From Catenulisporales bacterium (GTDB lineage Bacteria > Actinomycetota > Actinomycetes > Streptomycetales > Catenulisporaceae), in contig JAEKKI010000153.1 in NCBI GenBank assembly GCA_019510485.1, positions 1 through 42,337 of the forward strand: a stretch of DNA of 42,337 nt, in the 5' to 3' direction. Numbering within the stretch: the stretch's first letter is position 1; every line of letters starts with the position of its first letter. The position numbers and the translations under genes are program-made. The notes below the pieces were generated by a model. That model searched no databases, was not told the origin of the DNA, and saw only the letters and a program-made list of their open reading frames with translations. Of this stretch, positions 1 through 13,231 are shown in pieces.

Positions 1-933
1 GGTGGTGACGGCGGGCTCGCCGTGCAGGACCACGGCCACGTCGGTGGAGGTGCCGCCGCCGTCGAGGGTCAGGATGCGGTCGAAGCCGGCGTGCGCGCAG
101 ATCAGGGCGGCGCCGAGCGCGCCCGCGGCCGGGCCGGACAGCACGGTCGTGACCGGCTGGCGGACGACCTCCTCGGCGGAGAGCACGCCGCCGTTGGACT
201 TCATGACGTAGAAGGGGATGCGGCGGCGGTGTTCGGTGAGCGTGTCGAGGCGTTCGCGGATGCGGCTCACGTAGCGGGAAACCGTGGGCTTCACGGCGGC
301 GTCGACGAGGGTGGTCATCGAGCGCTCGTATTCGCGGTACTCGGGGAGGACATCGCAGGACAGCGATACCGCGGCCTCGGGGAACTCGGCTTCCAGGACG
401 GCGCGCATGGCTAGTTCGTGTTCCGGGTTGGCGTAGGAGTGCAGGAACGAGACGCCGATCGAGCGCACATCGGCGGCTTTGAGCAGGCGTGCGGCCTCCT
501 TGGCGCCGACTTCGTCGAAGGGGCGCACCTCCGCGCCGGACGCGTCGAGGCGGCCGCCCACGCCGCGGACCAGGTCGGCCGGGACGATGCGGGGCGGCTT
601 CACCCAGAAGTAGCTGTTGCCATAGCCGTCCGGGACCGACTGACGCGCGATTTCCAGCAAGTGTTCGAAGCCTGCTGTGGTGATGAAGCCGAGGCGTTCG
701 ACCTTGCCCTGCAACAGCTGGTTGGTGGCGACGGTGGTGCCGTGGCTGACGACGGCGATGGCGTCGGGGGTCGCGTCGAGCATCGTCAGGGCTTTGCGGA
801 CGGCGGCGATGAGCCCCTCGGACGGATCGGCCGGGGTCGAGGGAACCTTGCCGGCGGCGAACCGGCCGTCGGCTTCGTCAACCGCGACGACGTCGGTGAA
901 TGTCCCGCCGGTGTCGATACCGATCCGGATCAT
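1..933 (-). CDS. hyuA: Hydantoinase/oxoprolinase subunit A (HyuA), N-terminal 311 codons
   Basis: HyuA-type proteins catalyse ATP-dependent opening of cyclic amides such as hydantoins or 5-oxoproline in the cytoplasm. The translation opens with MIRIGIDTGGTFTDVVAVD, the Hydantoinase_A N-terminal nucleotide-binding motif, and continues with VSHGTTVATNQLLQ, typical of the family. Near the cut edge it reads LDGGGTSTDVAVV, the second ATPase motif. The gene leaves the window, so about half of the usual 650-700 residues is missing and hyuB cannot be seen. The ATG overlaps the stop of the preceding carbon-nitrogen hydrolase gene as ATGA, which implies translational coupling. The location behind a molybdenum hydroxylase operon and a nucleobase permease suggests a cyclic ureide substrate; that is inference. 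Confidence 0.9.
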   Translation of the reverse strand, partial: MIRIGIDTGGTFTDVVAVDEADGRFAAGKVPSTPADPSEGLIAAVRKALTMLDATPDAIAVVSHGTTVATNQLLQGKVERLGFITTAGFEHLLEIARQSVPDGYGNSYFWVKPPRIVPADLVRGVGGRLDASGAEVRPFDEVGAKEAARLLKAADVRSIGVSFLHSYANPEHELAMRAVLEAEFPEAAVSLSCDVLPEYREYERSMTTLVDAAVKPTVSRYVSRIRERLDTLTEHRRRIPFYVMKSNGGVLSAEEVVRQPVTTVLSGPAAGALGAALICAHAGFDRILTLDGGGTSTDVAVVLHGEPAVTT

Positions 934-1826
934 GGGCGGTCCCCGAGCGGGAACGGGGTGGTGGCCGCGCTGCTCAGCTCCTGCTGATAGGCGCTCAGGA
1001 GCTTGAGGTTGCGTCCGGCGAGATGGTCGAAGGTCTGGGCCCGGTCGGATCCGGGTGTCAGGGTCCGCATCGCGGTGGCCGGGTCCAGGCGGGCACTGGC
1101 CCAGCCCTCGTGCGAGGCGGCGCGGGCGACGACCTCGGCGACGGGGGTGACGATCAGCGAGTTGCCGAAGTAGTGGACGCCCGCCGGGTCGGTGCCGGTG
1201 GCGTTCGCACCGATGATGAAGACGTGGTTGTCATAGGCGCGGGCGCGGTTCGTCAGCTCCCAGATATCGGCGGAGCGCAGCAGCGCTGAGGGGCGGCAGA
1301 TGATCTCGGCACCGAGTACGGCCTGGATGCGGAACAGTTCGGGGAAGTCGCCGTCGAAGCAGACGGTCAGACCGATACGCCCGAGTTCGGTGTCGACGAC
1401 GGTGACCGAATCGCCGGGAGTCACCCATTGCGTCTCGCCGGGGAAGAGGTGGGTCTTGCGATAGACGCCTAGGACGTCGCCGCCAGGGCCGATCAGCACG
1501 GCCGAGTTGTAGACGACGCCGCGCTCGGCTCCACGCTCATAGGTGCAGTGGACGACGTGGACGCCGAGGCGGCGTGCGGCTTCCTGGACGGGCTCGGTGG
1601 CGGGGCCGGGGATCGGACTCATCAGGTCCCAGAGATCCTCGGTGGCGATGCCCGGGGTGAAGCCGGTGGTGACGGCCTCGGGCAGGACGAGCAGGTCGGC
1701 GCCGGTCGCACTGACGCACCGTTCCATGAGCTCGACGGCGCGATTGAGGTTCTCGGCCACGCTGTTCGCGGTGAGCGGGCCGGGGTGGGGCGCCAGTTGG
1801 AGGGCCGCTGCGGTCATCGGGCGCAT
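930..1826 (-). CDS. Carbon-nitrogen hydrolase (nitrilase superfamily amidohydrolase/carbamoylase)
   Basis: A 298-residue soluble member of the nitrilase superfamily, which hydrolyses amide or N-carbamoyl bonds with a Glu-Lys-Cys triad. All three residues are visible: Glu50 in LVLPEAVTTGF, Lys124 in YRKTHLFPGE and Cys156 in LTVCFDGDFPE. The start is the ATG at 1826 because GGAG lies six bases upstream; a second ATG at 1817 is possible. The reading frame stays open far upstream, but that extension is low-complexity and overlaps coxG, so it is not real. Its stop overlaps the hyuA start by four bases. In this context it may act as a ureide or oxamate-like amidohydrolase or an N-carbamoyl amidohydrolase; the sequence alone does not choose among them. 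Confidence 0.9.
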   Translation of the reverse strand: MRPMTAAALQLAPHPGPLTANSVAENLNRAVELMERCVSATGADLLVLPEAVTTGFTPGIATEDLWDLMSPIPGPATEPVQEAARRLGVHVVHCTYERGAERGVVYNSAVLIGPGGDVLGVYRKTHLFPGETQWVTPGDSVTVVDTELGRIGLTVCFDGDFPELFRIQAVLGAEIICRPSALLRSADIWELTNRARAYDNHVFIIGANATGTDPAGVHYFGNSLIVTPVAEVVARAASHEGWASARLDPATAMRTLTPGSDRAQTFDHLAGRNLKLLSAYQQELSSAATTPFPLGDRP

Positions 1827-1873
1827 GGCACGCTCCAGCACTGTGACCCACAGGATCGCCCGGCATCGGTCAT

Positions 1874-1908
1874 CGACCGGGTTTCGCTCCAGCGGCCGAA
1901 CCCGGTCG
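1874..1908 (-). terminator. Hairpin between coxG and the amidohydrolase gene
   Basis: Perfect 10-base arms, CGACCGGGTT at 1874-1883 and AACCCGGTCG at 1899-1908, enclose a 15-base loop. The hairpin lies in the 148-base gap between two same-strand genes. There is no T-run, so it could be an mRNA-processing or attenuation structure instead of a full terminator. Confidence 0.45.
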
Positions 1909-1974
1909 TCGCAGCTGGCATTCGGCCTTCGCGTGCGGCGCCGAGGCCTCGGCCGGCTGACGAAGTCGCGGCCC

Positions 1975-2622
1975 TCATCGCGACCCCCGCCGACCGCGCG
2001 AGCGCCCCATCGTCCAGCCGAGCACCACCCCGCCCAGGGCCGCGGCCGCGCCGGCCAGTGTCGCCGACGTGATCGCGGCGGTTCCAGGCGCGGGCGCTCC
2101 GGCGGCTCCGGCCGGCACATACCGCGCCGCTTCCGGTGCCGCGGCTTCGACGGGCCGGGCCTGCGCCGACGCGGGCGCCTCCTCCCCCACCAGCACCCCG
2201 TCCATCCCGGAGAAGAACTGCCCCGCGAGCTTGCGCGCCACCCCGCCGAGCATCCGCTGCCCGACCCCGCCGACCACGCCGCCGACCACCGCGTCGGCGT
2301 CGTACTCGACGCGGGTGTGGCCGTCGGCCTCGTCGACCAGCAGCATGCGGCACTCCGCCGAGACCGTGCCCGGGGCGCCGGCACCCGAGGCGCGCAGGGT
2401 GAAGGACCTCGGTGCCGCGCGGTCGGCCAGCTCCACGCGTCCCTTGTACGTGCCCTTGATCGAACCGACGCCGACCGTGACGACCATGTCGTAGACGTCT
2501 GGCTCGACCAGTTCCAGCCGTTCACAGCCGGGGATCGCGGCGGCGAGCGTCGCCGGATCCGTCAGGGCCTCGTAGACCCGTCCCACGTCGGCTCTCAGAA
2601 CCGCGTTGCCGGAAACCTTCAC
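1975..2622 (-). CDS. CoxG-like SRPBCC protein with C-terminal membrane anchor
   Basis: A 215-residue protein of the carbon monoxide dehydrogenase subunit G family (SRPBCC fold). CoxG proteins accompany CoxMSL-type molybdenum hydroxylases and are thought to help recruit the enzyme to the membrane. The N-terminal part, GNAVLRADVGRVYEALTDP with AAAIPGCE, is the typical CoxG opening. A Pro/Ala linker at about 150-180 precedes a hydrophobic segment near residues 183-203 and a basic tail, a plausible single membrane anchor. The start is GTG at 2622, overlapping the coxL stop as GTGA. Function here is assigned from family and operon position only. Confidence 0.88.
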   Translation of the reverse strand: MKVSGNAVLRADVGRVYEALTDPATLAAAIPGCERLELVEPDVYDMVVTVGVGSIKGTYKGRVELADRAAPRSFTLRASGAGAPGTVSAECRMLLVDEADGHTRVEYDADAVVGGVVGGVGQRMLGGVARKLAGQFFSGMDGVLVGEEAPASAQARPVEAAAPEAARYVPAGAAGAPAPGTAAITSATLAGAAAALGGVVLGWTMGRSRGRRGSR

Positions 2623-4988
2623 GCGTGTACCCGACCTTTCCGCAACTCGTACAGTTCGCTCGGCGAGATCGGCATCCGCCGGATGGTCAGCCGCTCAGCG
2701 TCTTCGATGGCTGATGCGATCGCCGCCGAGGTGGGGATGACGCCCGCCTCTCCCGCGCCTTTCAAACCCAGGGGGTTCAGTCCCGAGGCCGTCACCATGT
2801 GCGCCGTCGTGATCTGCGGCACCTCAGTGGCGAACGGGATCAGGAAGTCCATATAAGAGGCGTTCACCAGCTGCCCTGCCTCGTCGTAGACGATCCGCTC
2901 GTACAGCGCTCCCCCGACGCCCTGCGCCACGCCGCCGTGTACTTGTCCCTCCACGATGCGCGGGTTCACGACCACACCGCAGTCGTGCACGACGCAGTAC
3001 CGCAGGATCCGGATATCGGCGGTCTCCGGATCGGTCTCCACGACGACCCCGTGCGCTCCGGCGGCGAATGTCGACCGCTCCGGCATGTAGTAACCGGTCG
3101 CCTCCAGGCCCGGCTCCTCCCCGGAGCTGGAAACGGAGGCGAACTGCGTCGCCGCCTTGGCCGCCTCGTCGAAGGCGTAGCGCAGCGGATTCGACAGCAC
3201 CGCGACAGTGCGCAGGTCGATGGAGACCGTGTGGTCGTCCCGGTGCCGTACCAGCCCGTCGACGAGCTCCAGTTCCCCGGGCTCGACGCCGCCGCCGAGG
3301 GCCGCCGCCGCGACCCGTTTGGCCTTCTCCGCGACCTTGCCGGCGGCCACCGCCACCGCGTTGCCGCTGGTCACGATCGCCCGCGAGGCGAACGTGCCGA
3401 CCGCGTACTTGAACCGCCGGGTGTCGCCGGTGACGACCGTGACGTCGGCGACCGCCACGCCGAGCTGGTCCGCCGCGATCTGCGCCAACGTCGTGTAGTG
3501 CCCCTGTCCCTGCGTGGTCAGCCCGGCGGAGACCACGACTTCGCCGGTCGTCTCCACCTTCACATGAGCACCCTCATACGGCCCCATGCCGGTGCCTTCG
3601 ACGTAGGCCGCGACTCCGATCCCGATCCGGCGTCCCTCGGCGGCCGCGGCCTCGCGCTCGGCTTCGAAGCCGTCCCAGCCGACCAGCTCGCGGATCATCC
3701 GCAGCATCTTCGGATAGTCGCCCGAGTCGTAGATCAGGGGGCGGCCGTCCTGGAACACCAGGCCTTGGTCGTACGGCATCTCCTCGGGCTGGATCAGGTT
3801 GGCCTCGCGCACGGCCAGCCGGTCCAGCCCCAGGTATTCGGCGATCGCGTCCATGGTCCGCTCCATCGCGAACACGCCCTGCGGACGCCCGGCGCCGCGA
3901 TACGGCGTCACCATCACAGTGTTCGTATACAGCGAGGTGAACTCGACCCGGTACGCGCCGACCTTGTACGGTCCCAGCAGCTGCGTCGACGACACGATCG
4001 GCACGATGATCCCGTACGGCGTATACGCGCCGTTGTCGTGCCAGATCTCGACGCTGAGCCCGTGCAGGCGCCCGGAGCCGTCGAAGCCGACCTCGATCCG
4101 CTGCTGCTGGCCGCGCTCGTGCGCGCTGGAGATGAAGTGCTCGCGCCGGTCCTCGGCCCACTTCACGTCCCGCCCGAGCGTCATCGCCGCCCAGGGCACC
4201 AGGATCTCCTCGGGCCAGGGATGCACGATCTTCACACCGAAGCCGCCGCCGACGTCGGGGGTGACCACCTCGACCCGGTCCGGCGGCAGCCCGAGCTTGG
4301 CCGCCACCGCCAGGCGGACGCTGGTCGAGGTCTGCGTCGAGGAGTGGACCCGCAGGGTCTTGTCGTCTGCGTCCCAGCGCGCCAGGACCCCCTTGCCCTC
4401 CATCGGCATCGAGGCGCTGCGCTCGATCTCCAGGTCCAGCGTGAGGCGGTGCGGGGCGGCGGCGATCGCCTGGTGCGCGTCGCCTTTGCCGTTGACCTGC
4501 ACGCTGCGCGCGGCCACGTTGCCCGGGACGTCCTCGTGCACCAGCCGCTCGGCGGCGCGCGCCGCTCCGATGCCGACCACCGGCGGGAGTTGCTCGTACG
4601 TCACCACGATGCGCTCGGCGGCGTCCTCGGCGAGGTAGCGGTCGGTCGCGACCACCATCACCACGGCTTCGCCGACGTGGTTGACCTCGCCGTTCGCCAG
4701 GCAGTGCGGAGTGCGGGGGTGGGTCAGGTCGGGGTGCGGGATCAGCAGCGGGAGCGGTTCGGCGATGCGGTCCGGGAGGTCCTCGTGGGTGTAGACGGCG
4801 ACCAGGCCGTCGACGTCGAGGGCGTCGCTGACATCGATGTCGAGGATGCGCGCGTGTGCCACCGGGCTGCGGACGAACGCCGCCGCCAGGGCGTCATGGC
4901 CCAGGTCGTCGAGATAGCGGCCGTCACCTCTCAGGAGTCTGGGATCCTCTTTGCGCACCAGCGGCTGGCCGAGGTATTTGTCGCTCAC
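2619..4988 (-). CDS. Molybdenum hydroxylase large subunit, form II CoxL / xanthine dehydrogenase family
   Basis: Catalytic molybdenum-cofactor subunit of 789 residues. It begins with SDKYLGQPLVRKEDPRLLRG, the common CoxL N-terminus, and carries the C-terminal KGAGEAG motif with the catalytic Glu near residue 746. The active-site loop near residues 362-368 reads PYRGAGR. Genuine aerobic CO dehydrogenases have a Cys-bearing AYxCSFR loop, so this is the form II type that oxidises other substrates, probably a nitrogen heterocycle judged by its neighbours. The start is GTG at 4988, seven bases after GGAGG and overlapping the coxS stop as GTGA. The upstream open frame is a shadow of coxS. Together with the FAD, 2Fe-2S and CoxG-like genes it forms one translationally coupled unit. 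Confidence 0.93.
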   Translation of the reverse strand: MSDKYLGQPLVRKEDPRLLRGDGRYLDDLGHDALAAAFVRSPVAHARILDIDVSDALDVDGLVAVYTHEDLPDRIAEPLPLLIPHPDLTHPRTPHCLANGEVNHVGEAVVMVVATDRYLAEDAAERIVVTYEQLPPVVGIGAARAAERLVHEDVPGNVAARSVQVNGKGDAHQAIAAAPHRLTLDLEIERSASMPMEGKGVLARWDADDKTLRVHSSTQTSTSVRLAVAAKLGLPPDRVEVVTPDVGGGFGVKIVHPWPEEILVPWAAMTLGRDVKWAEDRREHFISSAHERGQQQRIEVGFDGSGRLHGLSVEIWHDNGAYTPYGIIVPIVSSTQLLGPYKVGAYRVEFTSLYTNTVMVTPYRGAGRPQGVFAMERTMDAIAEYLGLDRLAVREANLIQPEEMPYDQGLVFQDGRPLIYDSGDYPKMLRMIRELVGWDGFEAEREAAAAEGRRIGIGVAAYVEGTGMGPYEGAHVKVETTGEVVVSAGLTTQGQGHYTTLAQIAADQLGVAVADVTVVTGDTRRFKYAVGTFASRAIVTSGNAVAVAAGKVAEKAKRVAAAALGGGVEPGELELVDGLVRHRDDHTVSIDLRTVAVLSNPLRYAFDEAAKAATQFASVSSSGEEPGLEATGYYMPERSTFAAGAHGVVVETDPETADIRILRYCVVHDCGVVVNPRIVEGQVHGGVAQGVGGALYERIVYDEAGQLVNASYMDFLIPFATEVPQITTAHMVTASGLNPLGLKGAGEAGVIPTSAAIASAIEDAERLTIRRMPISPSELYELRKGRVHA

Positions 4989-5482
4989 GGTGTCGCCTCC
5001 CGCTCCCGCTTGAGCTCTGCCGCCCGCAGGACGGCGGCGACGATGTTCTGATAGCCGGTGCAGCGGCAGAGGTTGCCGCCGATCGCTTCGCGCGCTTCTT
5101 CCTCGGTGGGCTTGGGGTTCTCCTCCAGGTAGGCGGTGATGGTGGTGATGAAGCCGGGGGTGCAGAAGCCGCATTGCAGGCCGTGGCATTCGTGGAAGGC
5201 TTGCTGGACCGGTCCCAACTCGCCCGCCGGTTCGCAGCATCCTTCGACGGTCGTCACCGCGTGGCCGTCGACCGAGACCGCGAAGATCAGACAGGAGCGG
5301 ACCGGTACGCCGTCGAGCAGCACGGTGCAGGCTCCGCAGACCCCGTGTTCGCATCCCAGGTGCGTACCGGTCAGGCGCAGGTCCATGCGCAGGAAGTCCG
5401 CGAGCAGGCGCCGGGCCGGAACCTCGGCGCGCCGGGTCACGCCGTTGACCGTCACGGTGACCTGGTGCCGTTGTTCGCTCAT
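4985..5482 (-). CDS. Molybdenum hydroxylase small subunit, two [2Fe-2S] clusters
   Basis: A 165-residue electron-transfer subunit that passes electrons between the molybdenum centre and FAD. Both cluster motifs are intact: Cys44, Cys49, Cys52 and Cys64 in the plant-ferredoxin-like domain (GCEHGVCGACTVLLDG), and Cys104, Cys107, Cys139 and Cys141 in the helical domain (QCGFCTPG and LCRCTGYQNI). Length and spacing match the family. The ATG overlaps the FAD subunit stop as ATGA, and its own stop overlaps the large subunit GTG. The tight coupling argues for stoichiometric production of a heterotrimer. Confidence 0.95.
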   Translation of the reverse strand: MSEQRHQVTVTVNGVTRRAEVPARRLLADFLRMDLRLTGTHLGCEHGVCGACTVLLDGVPVRSCLIFAVSVDGHAVTTVEGCCEPAGELGPVQQAFHECHGLQCGFCTPGFITTITAYLEENPKPTEEEAREAIGGNLCRCTGYQNIVAAVLRAAELKREREATP

Positions 5483-6351
5483 GGCGCCACCGCCTCGTAC
5501 GCGGCCTGCAGAGAGCGCGCCGTGAGGACACGTGCCAGGTGTCTGCGATAGTCGGCGCCGGCGTGGATGTCGTCCTCGGGTTCCAGCCGGTCGGCCGCGA
5601 TCTGGCCGGCCGCCGCCCAGGCGACGCCGCTGGCGATGTCGGCGCCGGCCACCGCCTCGGTCACGTCCACCACCTGCGGCACCGGTCCCATCGCGATGTA
5701 CACGGCCGTGGCGCCGACCACCGCGCCGACCTCGTCGACGCGTACCAGCGTGCCGACGCCGCACAGCGCGTAGTCGCCGTTGCGTCTGGACACCTCGCGC
5801 CAGTCGCTTCCGGTGCGGCCGCGCGGTCTCGGGAAGTAGGCCTCCACGGCGATCTCGTCCTCGCGGCAGGCGGACTCCATCGGCCCGACGAAGAAGTCCC
5901 GCGCGGCGACGATTCGTTCGCCGTCGCGTTCCGAGCGCAGCGTCACCTCGCCGTCGAGCAGGGCCAGCACCGCCGGCATCTCGCCGCAGGGGTCGGCGTG
6001 CACGAGGCTGCCGACGGTCGTGCCGCGGTTGCGGATGGTCGGATGCGCGACGGTGCGCACGGCCTGGCGCAGCAGCGGGATCGCTTCGAAGGCATGAGTG
6101 GCCCGCTCGACGTCGGCGTGCCGGGCCAGGGCGCCGACGCGGACGCCGTGCAGGTCGGTGCGCACGTAGGCGAGCTCGTCCAGCCGGTTCACGTCGACCA
6201 GCCGCGCGGGGGCGGTCAGCCGCATGTTCAGCATCGGCACCAGGCTCTGGCCGCCGGCCAGCACCTTGGCCTCGGCGCCGTGCTCGGCCAGCAGGCGCAC
6301 GGCCTCGGCGACCGTGTCCGGGCCGTGGTACACCACCGGCGGGGGCTTCAT
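5479..6351 (-). CDS. Molybdenum hydroxylase medium (FAD-binding) subunit
   Basis: A 290-residue CoxM-type FAD subunit. It shows AGGQSLVPMLNMRL at about residues 32-45, the first FAD loop, and TIRNRGTTVGSLVHADP at about 98-114, the second, followed by a C-terminal CO_deh_flav_C region. The start at 6351 is chosen because GAGG stands eight bases upstream and the protein then begins MKPPPVVYHGPDTV, the normal start; an in-frame ATG at 6396 adds 15 unconserved residues. It is the first gene of the coupled hydroxylase unit. The 109-base gap after the permease gene may hold a separate promoter, but I could not identify one confidently. Confidence 0.93.
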   Translation of the reverse strand: MKPPPVVYHGPDTVAEAVRLLAEHGAEAKVLAGGQSLVPMLNMRLTAPARLVDVNRLDELAYVRTDLHGVRVGALARHADVERATHAFEAIPLLRQAVRTVAHPTIRNRGTTVGSLVHADPCGEMPAVLALLDGEVTLRSERDGERIVAARDFFVGPMESACREDEIAVEAYFPRPRGRTGSDWREVSRRNGDYALCGVGTLVRVDEVGAVVGATAVYIAMGPVPQVVDVTEAVAGADIASGVAWAAAGQIAADRLEPEDDIHAGADYRRHLARVLTARSLQAAYEAVAP

Positions 6352-6460
6352 GTCGGCATCCTCTTCTCGCCCAAAGGGCCGCGGCGACGTCGACATGTGC
6401 CGAACGCCGCCGCGATCGCTGGCTTAACTTGCCCAAGCACTGATCTTCATCCGGCTCGTT

Positions 6461-7876
6461 TCACAGCCCTGTACCCGCCTCGGCGACCGGCGACTCTTCC
6501 CGCGTCATACCACCCGGTCGTTTCAGATACTCCGGCGCTATCAGCCGGGCGCCGTGGTAGGCCACGATGGTGACGATGGTGCCGAGCGCGATGCCGGACA
6601 GCGAGAAGTCGTCGGTGAACTTCAAACTGGTGTTCCCGATCCCGATGATGACGCCGGCGGCGATCGGGACCAGGTTCAGCGGGTTGCCGAAGTCGACCCG
6701 GTTCTCGGTCCATATCTTGACCCCGAGCAGGCCGATCATGCCGTAGAGGACGACCGTGATGCCGCCGAGCACGCCGCCGGGGGTGGCCGCGACCAGGGCG
6801 CCGAACTTGGGTGAGAGGCCGAACAGGATCGCCACGAGCGCTGCGACGTAGTAGGCGGCCGTGGAGTAGACGCGGGTGGCGGCCATGACGCCGATGTTCT
6901 CGGCGTAGGTGGTGGTCGGGGAGCCGCCGAAGGTGCTGGCCAGGGCCGTGCCGAGGCCGTCGGCGGCGATGGCGCGGCCCATGGACGGATCGAGGTCGTT
7001 GCCGGTCATCTCGGCGACCGCCTTGACGTGGCCGGTGTTCTCGGCGACCAGGGCGATCACGGCCGGCAGGACCAAAAGGATGAAGGCCCACTTGAATTCC
7101 GGGAAATGCCAGCCGGCGAGCTGGTGCGCGCCGCTGCCGGTGGTCTTGTCCGGGAACCCGATCCACTTGGCCGACTTGACCGCGTCGAAGCTCGCCCGCC
7201 AGTGCGTGGTGTCGTGGCCGGCGCCGGCGTCGTAGGCGGTGATCTTGCCGAAGACCCGGTCGGCGAGCCAGGACAGCACATAGCCGAACACCAGCGCGAC
7301 GAAGATCGCTATCCGGCCGAGGAAGCCGCGGACGCCGACCATGATGCCGATCGCGACCAGCATGGTGATCAGCGCTATCCACTGGTCCTGGGGCCAGTAG
7401 ACGTTCGCCACGACCGGCGCCAGGTTGAAGCCGATCAGCAGCACCACGGCGCCGGTGACGGCCGGTGGCAGGACGGCGTGGATCACCTGGGATCCGAGGA
7501 AGTGGACCAGGACACCGACGGCCAGCAGGACGACTCCGGCGATCAGGATGGCGCCGGTGACGTGCTGGTCGTCGCCGCCCTGGGCGCGGATCGCGGCCAC
7601 ACCGCCGACGAAGCTCGCCGAGGTGCCCAGGTAGCTGGGGACCTTGTTCTTGACGATCAGCAGGAAGCAGATCGTGGCGACGCCGCTCATCATGATGGCC
7701 AGTTGTGGGTTCAGGCCCATGACCAGCGGGAAGACGAAGGTGGCGCCGAACATGGCGACCACGTGCTGCGCGCCCAGGCCCACGGTGCGGGGCCAGGACA
7801 GGCGTTCGTCGGGACGGACGACCGAGCCCGGTGGTGGTGTCTTGCCTTCGTATACGACCCGCCAGCCCAATGTCAT
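6461..7876 (-). CDS. NCS2 nucleobase:cation symporter (uracil/xanthine permease family)
   Basis: A polytopic membrane transporter of 471 residues in the nucleobase-cation symporter-2 family, which imports xanthine, urate or uracil. Family hallmarks are the VAENTGHVKAV segment and the signature block TTTYAENIGVMAATRVYST. There are about twelve to fourteen hydrophobic segments. I choose the ATG at 7876 (MTLGWRVVYEG) because a TANNNT -10 element ends seven bases before it, giving a leaderless start; the in-frame ATG at 7894 would lie inside the promoter spacer. It precedes the molybdenum hydroxylase genes on the same strand, which suggests that the transported base or ureide feeds that enzyme. 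Substrate specificity cannot be read from the sequence. Confidence 0.92.
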   Translation of the reverse strand: MTLGWRVVYEGKTPPPGSVVRPDERLSWPRTVGLGAQHVVAMFGATFVFPLVMGLNPQLAIMMSGVATICFLLIVKNKVPSYLGTSASFVGGVAAIRAQGGDDQHVTGAILIAGVVLLAVGVLVHFLGSQVIHAVLPPAVTGAVVLLIGFNLAPVVANVYWPQDQWIALITMLVAIGIMVGVRGFLGRIAIFVALVFGYVLSWLADRVFGKITAYDAGAGHDTTHWRASFDAVKSAKWIGFPDKTTGSGAHQLAGWHFPEFKWAFILLVLPAVIALVAENTGHVKAVAEMTGNDLDPSMGRAIAADGLGTALASTFGGSPTTTYAENIGVMAATRVYSTAAYYVAALVAILFGLSPKFGALVAATPGGVLGGITVVLYGMIGLLGVKIWTENRVDFGNPLNLVPIAAGVIIGIGNTSLKFTDDFSLSGIALGTIVTIVAYHGARLIAPEYLKRPGGMTREESPVAEAGTGL

Positions 7877-7883
7877 GGGCGGG

Positions 7884-7913
7884 ACTGTAGCCATGCTGTG
7901 ACGCCCGTCACAA
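7884..7913 (-). promoter_or_regulatory. Leaderless promoter of the permease gene
   Basis: Reading leftward, a -35 element TTGTGA (7913-7908) is followed by an 18-base spacer and a -10 element TACAGT (7889-7884). The ATG at 7876 begins seven bases later, so transcription should start at or next to the start codon. Confidence 0.55.
7897..7912. promoter_or_regulatory. CRP-type palindromic operator over the permease promoter
   Basis: TGTGACGCCCGTCACA is a perfect 7-2-7 palindrome that fits TGTGA-N6-TCACA, the binding pattern of CRP-family regulators. Its centre lies about 28-29 bases upstream of the predicted start and it covers the -35 and spacer, so a bound protein would most likely repress. 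The protein that binds is unknown. Confidence 0.55.
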
Positions 7914-7975
7914 GTACTGCGGGGTAACGGAATTCGCAGGTGGCGCGGGTGGGGGTCCGCTTCGCGGGACGGCTG

Positions 7976-9779
7976 TCACAGACCTCGCATGTGCAGGATC
8001 CTGAGCGCGACGGACAGGTCCAGGCGCAGGTCGGGGCGCTCCATGAACGGGCCGACCAGGCGTTCGATCTTGCCTATGCGGTAGCGGAGGGTGTTGTAGT
8101 GGAAGTGGAGGCGGCGGGCGGCTTCGGCGACGTTCAGGTTGGTGTCGAGGAGGACCTCCAGGGTGGTGCGCAGGTCTTCGGCGTCGGGATCGCCGTCGAC
8201 GGCCAGGCCCTTGAGCGTCTGGCGGGCGAAGTCGCGCAGCTCGGCCGGGTCGGGGACCAGGGAGAGCAGGCGGTAGACGCCGAGGGCGTCGAAGTGGACG
8301 ACCGAGCCGGGGCCGTTGAGGCGGCGGCCCATGCGCACGGCGCGGCGGGCTTCCTCGTAGGCGGCGGGGAGGTCGGCGATGGCCGTGACGGCGCGGGACA
8401 CGCCGGTGGAGAAGGTGCGGCGGCCGCCTCCGCCGGTGCCGGAGACCTCGGCGATCATGCTTCTGACCAGGGGGTCGGGGTTGTCGCCGGTTTTCAGTAC
8501 CACGACGACTTCCTGGTTGAAGCCGGCCACCGGCGTGCTGCGGTCGCGGGCGGTGACGACGGTCTGCCAGGCGGCGGCGAAGCGTTCGCGGGCGGGGCGC
8601 AGGGCGTGTTGGGAGGCGGGGAGGACGGACTGGCCGGGGTCTAGCTCGGCTACGAGGACGATGAGGTTGCGTGGGGGGCGGCGTTGGGGTGAGGAGGAAG
8701 TCGGCGCGGTATTTGTCCTCCACGGCGGATACCGCGAGTTGCTTCACCACGGCCAGGGCGGCGACCGTGGCGGCGCGCTCCAGGGCGGCGATGTCGGCGG
8801 CGTCGAAGGGGCGCTGGTCGGCGAAGGCGACGAGGCGGCCGTGGTCGACGCGGCCGGCGACGATGGGGATGACGGCGTGTTGGACGCCGTGGTGGGTGGT
8901 CAGGCCGGGGGGTTCGGTTTCGGTGCGGAGGCGGTGGGTGGGTTCGGTGGTGTGCTGCGTATCGAAAGCCGGGTCGAAGTCCGTGTCGAAGTCCGTGTCG
9001 AAACATGGGAAGTCGCGGACTTCGGCCGCGTCGTGCTCCGCGACGATGCGGCCGTCCGGGGACGTCACCAGCACCGGGCCGCCGAGGAGGCGGGCGAGCT
9101 CGGCGGTCAGCTCGGCCAGGCCGCCGCCTTCCAGGACGATCTGGGCCAGGGCCCGGTGCACGCGGTCGGCGCGGGCCAGGACGGCGGCTTGACGGTCGAG
9201 GACGTCGGACAGGACGTCGGTGAGGATTTCATCGAAGGCCACGCCCTCGGGGAGTTCGATGACCGGGAAGCCCAGGGCGTCGGCGGCGCGGAGCAGGTCC
9301 GCGGGGAGGTCGCCGAGGTAGCGGTGGGGTTTGATCGCGATCGCGGACAGGCCGGCGCGGTCCAGGTCGGCTATGAGGTCGGTGAGCGGCGAGGGCGAGT
9401 GGCGCAGGGGGTAGCCGGTGGTGAGGAGGAGTTCCTTGGGTTTGACCCAGGGAAGGATGTCGGGGACCTCCATCACGTTGACGCGTTCGACGACGCGGTG
9501 GCGGCCGGCGTGGCCCGCGACGATGCGGGCGCCGGCCAGGGCGGGGAGGTTGAGGGTCTGCTCGACGGTGAGGGCGACGGGGGCTGCGAGGGATGCCGCC
9601 ACCGCCGCTGCCGCCGCTGCTGCAGTTGCGGGGCTAGACGCCGGCCTCTCGACCCGAGTCGATCTTGCCGGGGACACGCCGGCTCCACCCGAGCCCTCCA
9701 CCCCTTTCTCGGCACTTTCTTTCACCGGTGATGTCGACATTCGCGAAGCTTCGGCGTCTTCCTTGGCAGAATTGCCCAT
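7976..9779 (-). pseudogene. pucR: PucR-family purine catabolism regulator, disrupted by deletion and frameshift
   Basis: PucR regulators control purine and ureide genes. The N-terminal half holds the PucR ligand domain (LPALAGARIVAG to KPKELLLTTGYPLR) and a GAF-like region, reading to about 8697. The C-terminal half, from about 8671, has the HTH_30 region with LEVLLDTNLNVAEAARRLHFHYNTLRYRIGKIERL. Between DKYRADFL and RNLIVLVAELDP the frame moves by one base and about 25 residues normally found there are absent, so the loss is roughly 75 bases. A run of six G's marks the junction. A Ala-rich N-terminal extension of about 70 residues is unusual. The ATG at 9779 fits a leaderless promoter. It could still make two fragments; assembly error is an alternative because of the homopolymer. 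Confidence 0.8.
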
Positions 9780-9785
9780 GCCGGG

Positions 9786-9791
9786 ACAGTA
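9786..9791 (-). promoter_or_regulatory. Leaderless -10 element of pucR
   Basis: TACTGT lies six bases before the pucR ATG at 9779 on the minus strand. No convincing -35 is visible. The 71-base gap to fdrA must also carry the divergent fdrA promoter, for which TAGCGT at 9803-9808 is a candidate -10. Confidence 0.5.
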
Positions 9792-9850
9792 GTCCTGCGG
9801 TCTAGCGTCGCGACAGGTTCTCGTCGACGGGTTTCTCGCGGAAAGGATCG

Positions 9851-11578
9851 ATGCCGGTGGTGGCGTCCGAGGGACGACAAGCGCTGTCGCACCAATCGCA
9901 CCTATCGCACCAATCGCACCTGGAGGTGCGGCGCGGGGAGTATCACGATTCCGTCACGCTCATGCTCGCCGCGCGGGCGGTCGCGGGGGTCGCCGGAGTC
10001 GAGCGCGTGCTGGTGGCGATGGGGACGGAGCTGAACATCGAGCTGCTGACCGCGCTCGGCTACCCGCCGCCGCGGCCGACGGCCGGCCCCGCCGACCTGA
10101 TGATCGCCTTCACCTGCCCGGACGAGGCCACCGAGGCCACGGCCCTGACCACCCTGACCGCATCGCTGACGCCCGGCGGCCCCATCACAGCCTCCGGACA
10201 TCAACCCCCTGACCGGCCCCTCCCCCGCACCACCGGCAGCGCACTAGGCCGAACGAGTGCACCTTTGACCCTGATCTCCACCCCGGGCCTTGCCTCCGTC
10301 CCCGAAGCCATGGAATCATTACAACACGGCGCATCAGTGGTCATCTTCAGCGATAACATCCCCATTCACCACGAGATCCGCCTCAAGGAAGAAGCTAGAC
10401 GACGCAGCCTGCTGGTCATGGGCCCGGACTGCGGCACCGTCGTCCTCCAAGGAATCGGCCTCGGCTTCGCGAACGCCACCCGCCCCGGCCCGATCAGCCT
10501 GGTAGCGGCCTCCGGCACCGGAGCCCAACAGTTGATGTCTCTCCTCGACGCGGCAGGCACCGGCATCCGCCACTGCCTCGGCGTAGGCGGCCGCGACCTC
10601 ACCGAACCAGTCGCCGGCCGCTCCACCCACGCAGCCCTGGACATCCTCGCCGAAGACGAGGAAACAACCCTCATCGTTCTCATCTCCAAACCACCGCATC
10701 CCGCAGTGGCGCGAAGCATCGAAGAACACGCATCCCGCCTCCCCAAGCCGGTGATCCTCGCCTTCATCGGCCCCGACCAGCCCACCCTCACCACCACCGC
10801 CGAAAGGATCCTCGCCACCCTCCACCACACCCCCACGCCCACCTGGCCGCACTGGGCCCCGTCCGGTGACGACGACGCGCGCGCCGTCAGCGATGGCAGC
10901 GGCCAGGCGGCGCGGGAGTCCGACCCCGGCCGGGCTGCCGCGCCGGACGCCGACCCCGGCCGGCCTCCACGGACGGCCGACCCCGACCGGACTGGTCCCG
11001 GCCAGGCTGCGCAGGAGGCCGATCCCGGCCGAACCATCCGCGGTCTCTTCAGCGGCGGCACCCTGTGCGCCGAGGCTGAAGTGGTGCTGACGCGGGTGCT
11101 TGCAGAACAGTTGGGTGGGTGGGGGGAGGGGGAAAGCAGAAAACTGAAGAAGACCACACCACAGGCGCCGCCCGAACCGCACGCCCCCTTCACCCCCCAC
11201 CTCACCGACTTCGGTGACGACACCTACACCCGCGGCCGTCCGCACCCGATGATCGACAACACGTTGCGGCTACGGGCGATCGCGGAAGCGGCGGCGGATC
11301 CACGGGTGGGCGTGCTGCTGCTCGACGTCGTGCTGGGGCGGGGGGCGCATCCGGATCCGGCGGGTGAGCTGGTGCCGGCGGTGGTCGCGGCGCGCGCCGA
11401 GCGCAGGCTGCCGGTGGTCGTGTCGTTGTGCGGGACCGCCGGGGATCCGCAGGGGTTGGAGCGGCAGGCGCGGGCCTTCGCCGACGCCGGGGCGTGGGTG
11501 TACCTGTCGAATGCGGAGGCTGCGACGGCCGCGGCGCGTTTGGTGCCGCGAGGACGCAGCGGTGGTGGTGACGAGTGA
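9851..11578 (+). CDS. fdrA: FdrA-family protein (acyl-CoA synthetase-like; carbamoyltransferase component)
   Basis: A 575-residue FdrA-family protein, related to the CoA-binding and ligase halves of succinyl-CoA synthetase. It shows VVIFSDNIPIHHEIRLKEEA, LLVMGPDCGT and VAASGTGAQQLMSLLDAAGTGIRHCLGVGGRDL, the family core, then SGGTLCAEAE and a GRPHPMIDNTLR block. In E. coli FdrA works with DUF1116 and DUF2877 proteins in carbamoyl transfer at the end of anaerobic allantoin use. Two low-complexity inserts interrupt it: DPGR-type repeats at about residues 340-395 and a Lys/Pro-rich stretch near 425-450. The N-terminus carries a tandem SHQSHL duplication. A purine-rich AAAGGA lies just before the ATG. 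The DUF1116 gene follows. Confidence 0.85.
   Translation: MPVVASEGRQALSHQSHLSHQSHLEVRRGEYHDSVTLMLAARAVAGVAGVERVLVAMGTELNIELLTALGYPPPRPTAGPADLMIAFTCPDEATEATALTTLTASLTPGGPITASGHQPPDRPLPRTTGSALGRTSAPLTLISTPGLASVPEAMESLQHGASVVIFSDNIPIHHEIRLKEEARRRSLLVMGPDCGTVVLQGIGLGFANATRPGPISLVAASGTGAQQLMSLLDAAGTGIRHCLGVGGRDLTEPVAGRSTHAALDILAEDEETTLIVLISKPPHPAVARSIEEHASRLPKPVILAFIGPDQPTLTTTAERILATLHHTPTPTWPHWAPSGDDDARAVSDGSGQAARESDPGRAAAPDADPGRPPRTADPDRTGPGQAAQEADPGRTIRGLFSGGTLCAEAEVVLTRVLAEQLGGWGEGESRKLKKTTPQAPPEPHAPFTPHLTDFGDDTYTRGRPHPMIDNTLRLRAIAEAAADPRVGVLLLDVVLGRGAHPDPAGELVPAVVAARAERRLPVVVSLCGTAGDPQGLERQARAFADAGAWVYLSNAEAATAAARLVPRGRSGGGDE
9887..9922 (+). repeat. 18-base tandem duplication at the fdrA 5' end
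   Basis: Two adjacent 18-base units beginning TCGCACCAATCGCACCT differ only at the last base. They encode SHQSHL twice in FdrA, upstream of the conserved domain. Confidence 0.85.
10918..11036 (+). repeat. Degenerate DPGR-coding repeats inside fdrA
   Basis: Four imperfect units built on GACCCCGGCCGG encode DPGRAA, DPGRPP, DPDRTG and DPGRTI with variable spacers. The stretch interrupts the fdrA core between the two ligase-like regions and looks like local repeat expansion. Confidence 0.7.
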
Positions 11579-11707
11579 CAACTCCGTGCGGTGTCGCGGC
11601 GCGTTCGGTCCGCAGCAGGGCAGCGGCGACGAACAGTGATGACCGCGTGCGGCGGCCGCGGCGCGTTTGGTGCTGCGGCGGCGCGACGGCCGCGGTGGTA
11701 AGTGATG
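11521..11707 (+). repeat. Three degenerate copies of the fdrA 3' end
   Basis: Segments starting at 11521, 11587 and 11648 each begin TGCGG or TGCGA, continue with CGCGGCGCGTT and end near a GTGA or TGATGA. The first is the true end of fdrA; the next two, with spacing of about 61-66 bases, fill the gap before the DUF1116 gene and look like decayed tandem duplicates. Confidence 0.65.
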
Positions 11708-11737
11708 AGTGCTTCAGCGGCGACTGGGGAGTCTGCG

Positions 11738-13231
11738 ATGTCTGATCTTCTGAAACCGATGCCGCACATCGTCACGACGGGCATCGCAACGTTTGCCGAC
11801 GACCTGGTCGAGCAGGGCCTGCCCGTGACCCGGGTCGACTGGCGTCCGCCCCCGCCCGGGACCGAAGGTGATCTCGCCGACGTCGCGCTGGATGCGCGGC
11901 GGGTGGATGCCAACGAGATGGCGGTGCGGCGGATGCTCGCGGCCGGTGCCGAGTTGGTGGACGTGCGGCCGGCGCGGGAAGTGCTCGGGTTGGAGGTGGG
12001 GCAGTTTCTGCATGCCGGGCCGCCGATCGGGTGGGAGCGTGCGTCGGGGCCGTTGCGGGGGGCGCTGATCGGGGCCGTGCTGTTCGAGGGGATCGCCGAG
12101 ACGCCGGACGCCGCAGAGTCGTGGCTCGGCGCAGGCGCAGGCACAGGCACAGGCACGAGTACAGGCGCGCCGAGCGAACCAAGCCCCCTCCGCCACGCCC
12201 ACTCCCCCGAACTCGCCCCCTGCCACAGCCGCGGCGGCGTGGGGCCGATGGCCGGCGTCGTCTCCCCGAGCATGTGGCTGTTCGAGCTTCGCGATCCGAA
12301 CAGCGGCCGCACCTCGTGGTGCAGCCTCAACGAGGGTCTCGGCAAGGTCCTGCGGTACGGCGCCTACGGTCCCGACGTGATCACCCGCCTCCGGTGGATG
12401 GCCGAGGTGCTCGGGCCGGTGTTGCAGCGGGCCGTGCGGCGGAGTGGGCCGGTCGACGTCAAGGCGATCATCGCGCAAATGCTGCACATGGGTGACGAGG
12501 GGCACAACCGCAATCGGGCCGGGACGTTGATGCTCCTGCGCGAGTTGCTGCCCGCGCTGATCGAGAACGGGGAGGATGCCAAGGCGCTGGCTGATGTCGT
12601 GCGCTTCGTGTCGGGGAACGACCACTTCTTCCTCAACCTGGTCATGCCCGCGTGCAAGTTGGCGGCCGGGGCGGCGGCGGGGGTGGCGGGCAGCAGTGTC
12701 GTGACCGTGATGGCGCGCAACGGCACCGACTTCGGGATCCAGACCGCCGGGACCGGCGATCGGTGGTTCACCGCGCCGGCGCATACGCCCGAGGGCCTGT
12801 TCCTGGCCGGGTACGGCCCCGAGGACGCCAATCCCGACATCGGCGACTCCGCGATCACCGAGACGGCCGGGGTGGGCGGCTTCGCCATGGCCGCCGCGCC
12901 CGCGATCGCGCGGCTGGTCGGCGGGACGGCGGCCGGCGCCGTGGCCGCCACCGGGCTGATGTACGAGATCACGCTCGCCGAGAACCCGGCTCTCACCATC
13001 CCGGCGCTCGACTTCCGCGGCACGCCGACCGGCATCGACGTCACCCGCGTCGTGCGCACCGGCGTCCTGCCGCAGATCAACACCGGGATGGCGGGACGCG
13101 TCGCGGGGACCGGGCAGGTCGGCGCCGGGCTCGTGACGCCGCCGGCCGAGTGCTTCACGCAGGCGCTGACGGCGCTGGCGGAACTCGCCCGGGACGCCGC
13201 CGGGCCGCAGGACGGGGATGACCTGCGCTGA
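11738..13231 (+). CDS. DUF1116 protein (YlbE-like), partner of FdrA
   Basis: A 497-residue DUF1116 protein. Typical blocks are PHIVTTGIATFADDL (replacing the usual opening), VTRVDWRPP, MWLFELRDPNSGRTSWCSLNEGLGKVLRYGA, MLHMGDEGHNRN and FVSGNDHFFLN. In E. coli the homologue YlbE is paired with FdrA and linked to oxalurate/oxamate carbamoyl transfer; here it follows fdrA directly on the same strand. The ATG at 11738 is preferred because GGGGAG lies six bases upstream; an in-frame GTG at 11702 lies inside the decayed repeat. An insert of about 40 residues, Gly/Thr- then Pro/Ser-rich, at about 130-170 makes it longer than enterobacterial homologues. A DUF2877 gene, the usual third member, is not in the window. 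Confidence 0.88.
   Translation: MSDLLKPMPHIVTTGIATFADDLVEQGLPVTRVDWRPPPPGTEGDLADVALDARRVDANEMAVRRMLAAGAELVDVRPAREVLGLEVGQFLHAGPPIGWERASGPLRGALIGAVLFEGIAETPDAAESWLGAGAGTGTGTSTGAPSEPSPLRHAHSPELAPCHSRGGVGPMAGVVSPSMWLFELRDPNSGRTSWCSLNEGLGKVLRYGAYGPDVITRLRWMAEVLGPVLQRAVRRSGPVDVKAIIAQMLHMGDEGHNRNRAGTLMLLRELLPALIENGEDAKALADVVRFVSGNDHFFLNLVMPACKLAAGAAAGVAGSSVVTVMARNGTDFGIQTAGTGDRWFTAPAHTPEGLFLAGYGPEDANPDIGDSAITETAGVGGFAMAAAPAIARLVGGTAAGAVAATGLMYEITLAENPALTIPALDFRGTPTGIDVTRVVRTGVLPQINTGMAGRVAGTGQVGAGLVTPPAECFTQALTALAELARDAAGPQDGDDLR
12127..12168 (+). repeat. GCAGGC/ACAGGC hexamer tract in the DUF1116 gene
   Basis: A run of GCAGGC and ACAGGC units encodes a Gly/Ala/Thr tract (GAGAGTGTGTSTGA). The repeat is in frame and marks the start of the insert that is absent from the conserved DUF1116 core. 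Confidence 0.7.

Follow-up and report, generated by a model that had tools for sequence, protein, structure and literature searches.

The window analysed here is a whole stretch of 42,337 nucleotides from a Catenulisporales bacterium (contig JAEKKI010000153.1 of assembly GCA_019510485.1; C219:1-42337 in our numbering), part of a 5.53 Mb genome that is 77% complete and spread over 326 contigs. Leftward from a PucR regulator, the minus strand encodes, in order, an NCS2 permease, the CoxM, CoxS and CoxL subunits of a molybdenum hydroxylase, a CoxG-like protein, a C-N hydrolase and the beginning of HyuA (311 residues). FdrA and AllG (DUF1116) lie on the plus strand, divergent from PucR (Table 1). 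Pfam placed every family named in a preliminary description of this DNA where that description had put it (HyuA N-terminal part, CN_hydrolase, MoCoBD_1/2, the flavin adenine dinucleotide (FAD) subunit, Xan_ur_permease, PucR, Ligase_CoA/FdrA and AllG). We interpret the window as one half of a cluster, conserved in actinobacteria, for the oxidative catabolism of pyrimidines, a reading to which we assign a probability of roughly 0.6.

A search of the genome located an AtzD-family gene on another contig, C111, which carries the HyuA remainder, HyuB, carbamate kinase, the AtzD-family gene, XdhC and a MobA-like gene, in that order. The start of C111 (L104, 1-428) overlaps the left end of the window (1-428) by 428 bases at 95% identity, and C111 most likely continues the window locus, whether in the same strain or in a close relative of it. 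An identity of only 95% over 428 bases within one assembly suggests that the binned genome contains two close strains. In G004, a genome of the same genus assembled as one contig of 10.47 Mb, the whole set occurs in identical order. The preliminary description had pointed to the sequence left of position 1 as the place to look for HyuB, carbamate kinase and DUF2877 (AllH); the first two are present on C111, whereas AllH was found in 0 of 10 genomes of the genus.

The AtzD-family protein of C111 scored 481 bits against PF09663, and its best match in the PDB was 5hwe, 'Barbiturase', at 642 bits (expectation value, E, 3e-192), compared with 331 bits for the best cyanuric acid hydrolase. We rejected a cyanuric acid hydrolase identity because the protein is far nearer to barbiturase, and by kinship the ring-opening gene of C111 is a barbiturase. 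At the column of Arg188 of cyanuric acid hydrolase, placed by our own count, the cyanuric acid hydrolase shown has R, and both 5hwe and the cluster protein have N; this position is reported as Gln in barbiturases (PMC4051656; here and below, papers are cited for individual passages). The NCS2 permease scored 194 bits against UraA versus 54 bits against the uric acid-xanthine permease, and ENIGVMA-TR is common to the permease and UraA; it stays under the NCBIfam cut-offs for RutG (338 of 759 bits) and uracil permease (266 of 477 bits). The kinship to barbiturase and a permease nearest to UraA together indicate a pyrimidine ring. The cluster also encodes both subunits of an ATP-dependent hydantoinase, HyuA and HyuB, the latter scoring 466 bits against PF02538 with an N-methylhydantoinase as its best PDB match. 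The hydroxylase has three subunits (L/S/M), and its CoxL carries PYRGAGR, with YRGAGR within it, which we take to be the motif of form II molybdenum hydroxylases; the nearest PDB entry to CoxL is the quinoline 2-oxidoreductase 1t3q.

Oxalurate is one CH2 shorter than ureidomalonate. In E. coli, AllFGH is reported to make carbamoyl phosphate from oxalurate (PMC11326118). In the known oxidative route, a pyrimidine is oxidized to barbiturate, which barbiturase and ureidomalonase then convert to malonate and urea (PMC3758960; cited for mycobacteria in PMC3706326). Starting from the genes as read, their linkage, their kinship to barbiturase and UraA, and the swap pattern described below, we reasoned that uracil would be imported by the UraA-like NCS2 permease and oxidized to barbiturate by the CoxM-S-L hydroxylase, itself matured by XdhC and the MobA-like protein. 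Barbiturase would open barbiturate to ureidomalonate, and FdrA-AllG, together with AllH in most relatives, though not in this genus, would convert ureidomalonate and phosphate to malonamate and carbamoyl phosphate. Carbamate kinase would then turn carbamoyl phosphate into ATP, CO2 and ammonia, and malonamate would be hydrolyzed to malonate by the C-N hydrolase or, in relatives, by an unrelated enzyme of the amidase-signature type. The assignment of CoxMSL as a putative uracil/thymine dehydrogenase comes from its linkage to barbiturase and the UraA-like permease. HyuAB, which recurs in AllG-positive and AllG-negative clusters, may open 5-methylbarbiturate in a thymine branch, although this is a guess. 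A coenzyme A (CoA)-transferase of family III and an AccA/AccD-like protein lie near barbiturase in some genomes (G431 by test, others by eye) and would fit malonate use.

The gene set recurs in the same order across many actinobacteria, which goes beyond chance. We examined 80 AllG loci of named genomes, dropping loci with too little upstream sequence from the denominators. FdrA was present in 71 of 71 loci with at least 1.6 kb upstream, and AllH in 65 of 66 with at least 2.6 kb upstream, all from genera other than that of the window. The other partners were PucR (53/64), NCS2 (53/60), CoxM (55/59), CoxS (54/58) and CoxL (49/57). Four of the eight loci counted as missing CoxL are cut by the locus edge (L054, L056, L066, L081), and four have none within the locus (L021, L038, L041, L085).

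In a sample of 296 genomes of the class, AllG was found in 72, the AtzD family in 67, a CoxL orthologue (E ≤ 1e-180) in 63 and all three in 60. An AtzD-family gene accompanied the hydroxylase in 62 of 63 genomes and AllG did so in 60 of 63; both partners were present in 60 of the 72 AllG genomes, the other 12 being without this CoxL. One of the 67 AtzD-family members (G218) is a 25-residue fragment of 28.8 bits, and six genomes were AtzD-only with respect to AllG (G210, G226, G284, G291, G311, G386). Fisher p values were 1.4e-46 for CoxL with AllG and 1.1e-56 for CoxL with AtzD when species were treated as independent, which they are not. All 50 genomes drawn from the 80 AllG loci, partly the same genomes as in the class sample, had an AtzD-family gene. 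Of the 61 genomes that have AllG as well as AtzD, 36 carry the two on one contig, at a distance of 18-45 kb in 29 cases. In L120 (G321) and L121 (G357), probably from Jiangella, the cluster is split, and over 100 kb separates AllG from HyuAB, carbamate kinase and barbiturase. Among 132 plasmid records with an AtzD-family match, two had 60-80% identity to the AtzD-family protein of the cluster (Nonomuraea 73%, Embleya 71%) and 130 less than 60%.

A comparison with Rhodococcus-like genomes separated the cluster into two parts. Among 401 genomes of the family of G226, there were 43 AtzD matches, whose identity to the cluster protein was bimodal, either 78-82% or 38-43%. Seven distant genes at 38-43% (G291, G226, G284, G311, G573, G564, G486) were set aside; they have other surroundings, in 13-20 kb stretches without this hydroxylase. 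The barbiturase of the Rhodococcus-like genome G683 (6.34 Mb) shares 367 of 369 aligned residues with 5hwe and is 82% identical to the barbiturase of the cluster; 5hwe, for which the PDB listing says only 'Barbiturase', is presumably the Rhodococcus erythropolis enzyme. Around the G683 gene lie HyuA, HyuB, CoxG, CoxL (64%), CoxS, CoxM, two NCS2, two PucR, XdhC and amidases, and AllG was not found in the G683 genome. G787 and G885 resemble G683, with HyuAB present and AllG-negative. The hydroxylase-HyuAB-barbiturase half can therefore occur without FdrA-AllG. AllG was present in 3 of the 22 genomes of this family with a 78-82% barbiturase: in G627, about 26 kb from barbiturase, and in G821 and G853, as a lower-scoring type.

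The gene beside barbiturase differs with the presence of AllG. Carbamate kinase lies at most 120 bases from barbiturase in 19 of 19 AllG-positive stretches examined (C111, G004, G006, G007, G009, G382, G212, G431, G312, G464, G225, G256, G321, G357, G223, G346, G270, G627 and G215). In all six AllG-negative genomes examined from the G226 family (G683, G787, G775, G802, G838, G885), an amidase-signature gene adjoins barbiturase instead; carbamate kinase adjoined it in 0 of 6, and none was found in the fetched 40 kb. The preliminary description had held that its proposal would fail if the hydroxylase and FdrA halves occurred independently. They do so in part, since there are hydroxylase-HyuAB-barbiturase sets without FdrA/AllG and diverged FdrA/AllG pairs without the hydroxylase, but AllG accompanies the hydroxylase in most hydroxylase-bearing genomes of the class sample, as counted above. 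The neighbourhood pattern looks like a swapped module rather than unrelated neighbours. Urease alpha was found in 17 of 18 AllG-negative genomes of the G226 family versus 6 of 44 AllG-positive genomes, in a test of 70 genomes that included 44 of the 50 AllG-locus genomes and 21 of the 22 G226-family genomes; this contrast loosely supports the phosphorolysis idea and is confounded by kinship.

Genes of the window and of the related loci were called with a simple codon-position gene caller; in six-frame clustering of this G+C-rich DNA, shadow frames had drowned out the true genes. The caller missed FdrA in the window, G004, G006 and G382, and tblastn revealed it in the first three. Reading frames of 970 and 531 residues are too long for CoxL and the C-N hydrolase, which start near 4988 and 1826, the latter by alignment to G004, and longer frames overlap CoxS at 4985-5482. 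PucR is a single long gene in G004 and G006. In the window, tblastn placed residues 49-327 and 381-637 (numbering of the intact G004 protein) in separate frames, with the C-terminal HTH_30 part at 7976-8530; the break may be a true mutation or an assembly error.

Table 1. Genes of the cluster in the window and, for the remainder of HyuA, on contig C111
Feature	Position	Strand	Basis
HyuA (ATP-dependent hydantoinase/oxoprolinase A), N-terminal 311 residues	1..933	-	Pfam PF05378, PF01968; truncated by contig end
HyuA remainder	contig C111, locus L104, 21-1586	+	C111 overlap and alignment
C-N hydrolase (nitrilase superfamily amidase), putative malonamate amidase	930..1826	-	PF00795 163 bits
CoxG-like protein of hydroxylase	1975..2622	-	PF06240 90 bits
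CoxL-type molybdenum subunit, putative uracil/thymine dehydrogenase large subunit	2619..4988	-	PF02738, PF20256; NF040766 1410 bits
CoxS-type [2Fe-2S] subunit	4985..5482	-	translation, gene call and similarity to relatives (G004 gene 89% identical)
CoxM-type FAD subunit	5479..6396	-	PF00941, PF03450
NCS2 permease, uracil-permease-like (TTYAENIGVMAATR)	6461..7894	-	PF00860 (Xan_ur_permease); UraA best PDB match
PucR regulator, split across two frames near 8694-8740	7976..9779	-	PF07905; HTH_30 in other frame; tblastn of G004 protein
FdrA (AllF), putative ureidomalonate phosphorolysis subunit	9851..11578	+	PF00549; best PDB match 3dmy FdrA
AllG (DUF1116), FdrA partner	11702..13231, likely start ~11738	+	PF06545 320 bits; model matches 3clq

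We next consider the amidase, whose best PDB matches in the window are nitrilase/Nit2-like amidases. In 13 relatives with a stretch spanning CoxG to HyuA, a close C-N hydrolase was recognized in six (G004, G006, G007, G009, G431, G312) and a close amidase-signature protein in three (G382, G464, G256); the amidase-signature enzyme takes the place of the C-N hydrolase in these three and in L049. Malonamidase E2 was tried as a guide to the substrate and discarded, as the amidase-signature proteins of L049 and G787 match many other amidases, such as GatA and aryl acylamidase, better, and kinship does not settle the substrate. An alternative to our scheme is that the amidase beside the hydroxylase is itself a ureidomalonase, while FdrA-AllG and carbamate kinase serve a different ureide, such as the one that HyuAB would produce in a branch for thymine or 5-substituted pyrimidines. 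Both HyuAB and AllG recur, as this would have it, HyuAB occurs without barbiturase in G439, and the amidase-signature protein adjoining barbiturase in 6 of 6 Rhodococcus-like genomes is in keeping with such a role. However, HyuAB is present in the AllG-negative G683, G787 and G885, and is thus independent of FdrA. In AllG-positive clusters, moreover, the amidase is of nitrilase type or else an amidase-signature protein that shares only ~40% identity with its Rhodococcus-like counterpart, and no close one was recognized in 4 of the 13 clusters. We consider this alternative unlikely.

For the FdrA-AllG pair, the window FdrA scored 353 bits against PRK06091, under the cut-off of 433. Of the 91 residues invariant across 12 other FdrA rows it retains 85, and AllG retains all 119 of 119 (12 other rows), so the pair does not look decayed. 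The structural model of AllG had a confidence (predicted local distance difference test, pLDDT) of 82.9 and three PDB matches at E ≤ 0.001, all of them chains of 3clq, an uncharacterized Enterococcus protein (template modelling, TM, score 0.92-0.94 by target length); it gave no clue to mechanism. In E. coli, each of the three AllFGH genes is reported to be needed for oxamate production (PMC11326118). AllH is present in G015, of the same order as the window's genus. The genus has a longer FdrA that contains a low-complexity linker: it measures 575 residues in the window and 552-710 residues, stop to stop, in L009, L011, L013 and L016, compared with 448-508 residues in 11 other barbiturase-linked rows, as if the FdrA of the genus had been altered after loss of AllH. 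Because AllH is missing and the activity is only predicted, the label AllFGH oxamate transcarbamylase is unsuited to this genus.

The AllG proteins of barbiturase clusters (16 of 23 tree rows) form one clade with support 100/99, apart from E. coli AllG on its own long branch. This clade bears on the possibility that FdrA-AllG acts on oxalurate from purine or allantoin breakdown elsewhere in the cell and is merely co-regulated with the pyrimidine cluster through PucR. PucR is named for purine catabolism in its Pfam description, and the cluster AllG is 44-48% identical to E. coli AllG, both of which would suit such a role. However, the separate clade tracks the hydroxylase and barbiturase (60/72), and nothing in the recurrent gene groups around the loci stood out as an allantoin gene, as judged by eye on gene starts with no family scan. 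We therefore regard this explanation as rather improbable.

AllG proteins also occur in other settings. Deep-branching members, ~38% identical to that of the window, were found in L131, L136, L138 and L139; the neighbours in L131 are a ComA-like phosphosulfolactate synthase, DUF7714, two lyase-family proteins and a pyridoxal phosphate enzyme, an arrangement that recalls what we take to be bacterial coenzyme M synthesis. By gene starts, L136 is like L131, and L138 and L139 are so in part. A second group (~50-53% identical; L128, L129, L133, L137) occurs with FdrA and carbamate kinase, and Pfam identified an isochorismatase-family hydrolase in L128 and L137; by analogy, this type may perhaps belong to a biuret/triuret-type route, as proposed for nitrifiers in PMC12625717. 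Two AllG-only surroundings were left unread, as the codon-position caller gave no genes in L134 (G398) and mostly none in L132 (G305).

The preliminary description had given as an example the oxidation of hydantoin to parabanate, leading to oxalurate as a substrate for FdrA-type systems; written out in full, the hydroxylase would oxidize hydantoin to parabanate, HyuAB would open it to oxalurate, FdrA-AllG would yield oxamate and carbamoyl phosphate and the amidase would hydrolyze oxamate; this would give HyuAB a job, HyuA and HyuB are in the ATP-dependent hydantoinase family and oxalurate is a reported AllFGH substrate (PMC11326118), but the route leaves the near-constant barbiturase and the UraA-like permease unexplained and meets the same hydroxylase and HyuAB beside barbiturase in Rhodococcus-like genomes without AllG, and we find it very improbable. 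With the barbiturase and the UraA-like permease in view, both the hydantoin/parabanate/oxalurate and the purine readings ranked behind a pyrimidine. The wider proposal of that description, a single catabolic cluster for import, ring hydroxylation and ring opening of a cyclic nitrogen compound with release of carbamoyl phosphate, is supported; its general logic was right and its proposed substrate most likely wrong.

Several observations weigh against oxidative pyrimidine catabolism as the function of the cluster. Only barbiturase has a close, experimentally named homologue, and we infer every other substrate, including those of the hydroxylase, FdrA-AllG and the amidase, from sequence and gene context. 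HyuAB has no obvious step, as a second ring-opening enzyme is superfluous for uracil alone. G439 (L186-L187) has the hydroxylase, HyuAB, NCS2, PucR, XdhC and an apparent CoA-transferase, yet despite this hydroxylase-HyuAB half no AtzD-family match was found in its genome, where HyuAB may be the ring-opening enzyme. Two genomes have the hydroxylase and barbiturase without AllG: G386, with neither carbamate kinase nor amidase within ~10 kb of barbiturase, and G210 (72% complete), whose contig ends at barbiturase. A 35 kb stretch of G015 holds AllFGH, the hydroxylase and the C-N hydrolase, but HyuA, carbamate kinase and barbiturase were all absent from that stretch. In seven of the 36 genomes with AllG and barbiturase on one contig, the distance between the two is 90 kb to 1.7 Mb. 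In three of the six AllG-negative genomes (G775, G802, G838), the hydroxylase and HyuAB were not found within ~20 kb of barbiturase; of the reference set, only the amidase, PucR and barbiturase lie within that distance. AllH/DUF2877 (PF11392) was not found in the ten genomes of the genus, seven of which have AllG. Urease is present in three of four tested genomes of the window's genus, in G015 and in the AllG-positive G627, G821 and G853, contrary to a simple link between lack of urease and phosphorolysis. Lastly, no close amidase was recognized in four of the 13 relatives: G212 and G346 show just a distant C-N hydrolase (37%) in another part of the stretch, and G225 and G627 show none. With a close enzyme recognized in only 9 of the 13 relatives, the last step varies among clusters.

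The cluster shares features with several known systems. It is best classed with the known oxidative pyrimidine pathway, as a variant with a borrowed transcarbamylase of AllFGH type. With the Rhodococcus erythropolis pathway, it shares the barbiturase subfamily and the hydroxylase, HyuAB, NCS2 and PucR families found around the G683 barbiturase. It differs in adding FdrA-AllG and carbamate kinase and in the replacement of the amidase adjoining barbiturase, a candidate ureidomalonase; the Rhodococcus pathway ends in malonate and urea, whereas the cluster would release no urea. With E. coli AllFGH and AllK, it shares FdrA, AllG, carbamate kinase and the expected reaction of a ureide and phosphate to an amide and carbamoyl phosphate (PMC11326118). 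The E. coli genes are, however, linked to allCDE, and those of the cluster to barbiturase and the hydroxylase, with an AllG clade of their own and no AllH in the window's genus. The cluster also has an amidase for the amide product, which in E. coli is described as a dead end (PMC11326118). The ureidoglycine carbamoyltransferase (UGTCase) of Rubrobacter xylanophilus similarly replaces a hydrolytic ureide step by phosphorolysis, with an adjacent carbamate kinase gene (PMC4016543); it is, by contrast, a pseudo-aspartate-transcarbamylase of purine catabolism, a family to which AllFGH is reported to have no similarity (PMC11326118). The form II CoxL-type hydroxylases (quinoline 2-oxidoreductase, NF040766) have the same L/S/M organization, PYRGAGR motif and CoxG and XdhC partners as the cluster enzyme, which differs in its putative pyrimidine substrate.

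We propose, at about even odds, an ATP-yielding, urea-free oxidative pyrimidine catabolism that is widespread in actinobacteria. In this proposal, FdrA-AllG(-AllH) would be a ureidomalonate phosphorylase replacing ureidomalonase, two-subunit and without AllH in Catenulispora-type genomes; CoxMSL would be the missing uracil/thymine dehydrogenase genes, in Rhodococcus also; and the amidase-signature protein beside the Rhodococcus barbiturase would be the missing ureidomalonase.

The oxidative uracil route has been known biochemically since the 1950s (PMC3758960, PMC3706326), and among its enzymes only barbiturase could be tied to a sequence. Among the matches listed in the open-licence literature, we recognized no report that connects barbiturase to FdrA/AllG or to this hydroxylase. 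In a survey of 6423 genomes, only 3% were reported to have AtzD/Bar homologues (PMC3758960); against that survey, the AtzD family was found in 67 of 296 genomes of the class, 62 of them with this hydroxylase. The cluster thus offers gene candidates for the first step of the route (the hydroxylase) and, in Rhodococcus-like genomes, for its last hydrolytic step (the amidase). It further suggests that the pathway has a second ending, in which the carbamoyl group would be conserved as carbamoyl phosphate and a nitrogen-scavenging route would also yield ATP. If this is true, FdrA/AllG transcarbamylases would extend beyond allantoin.

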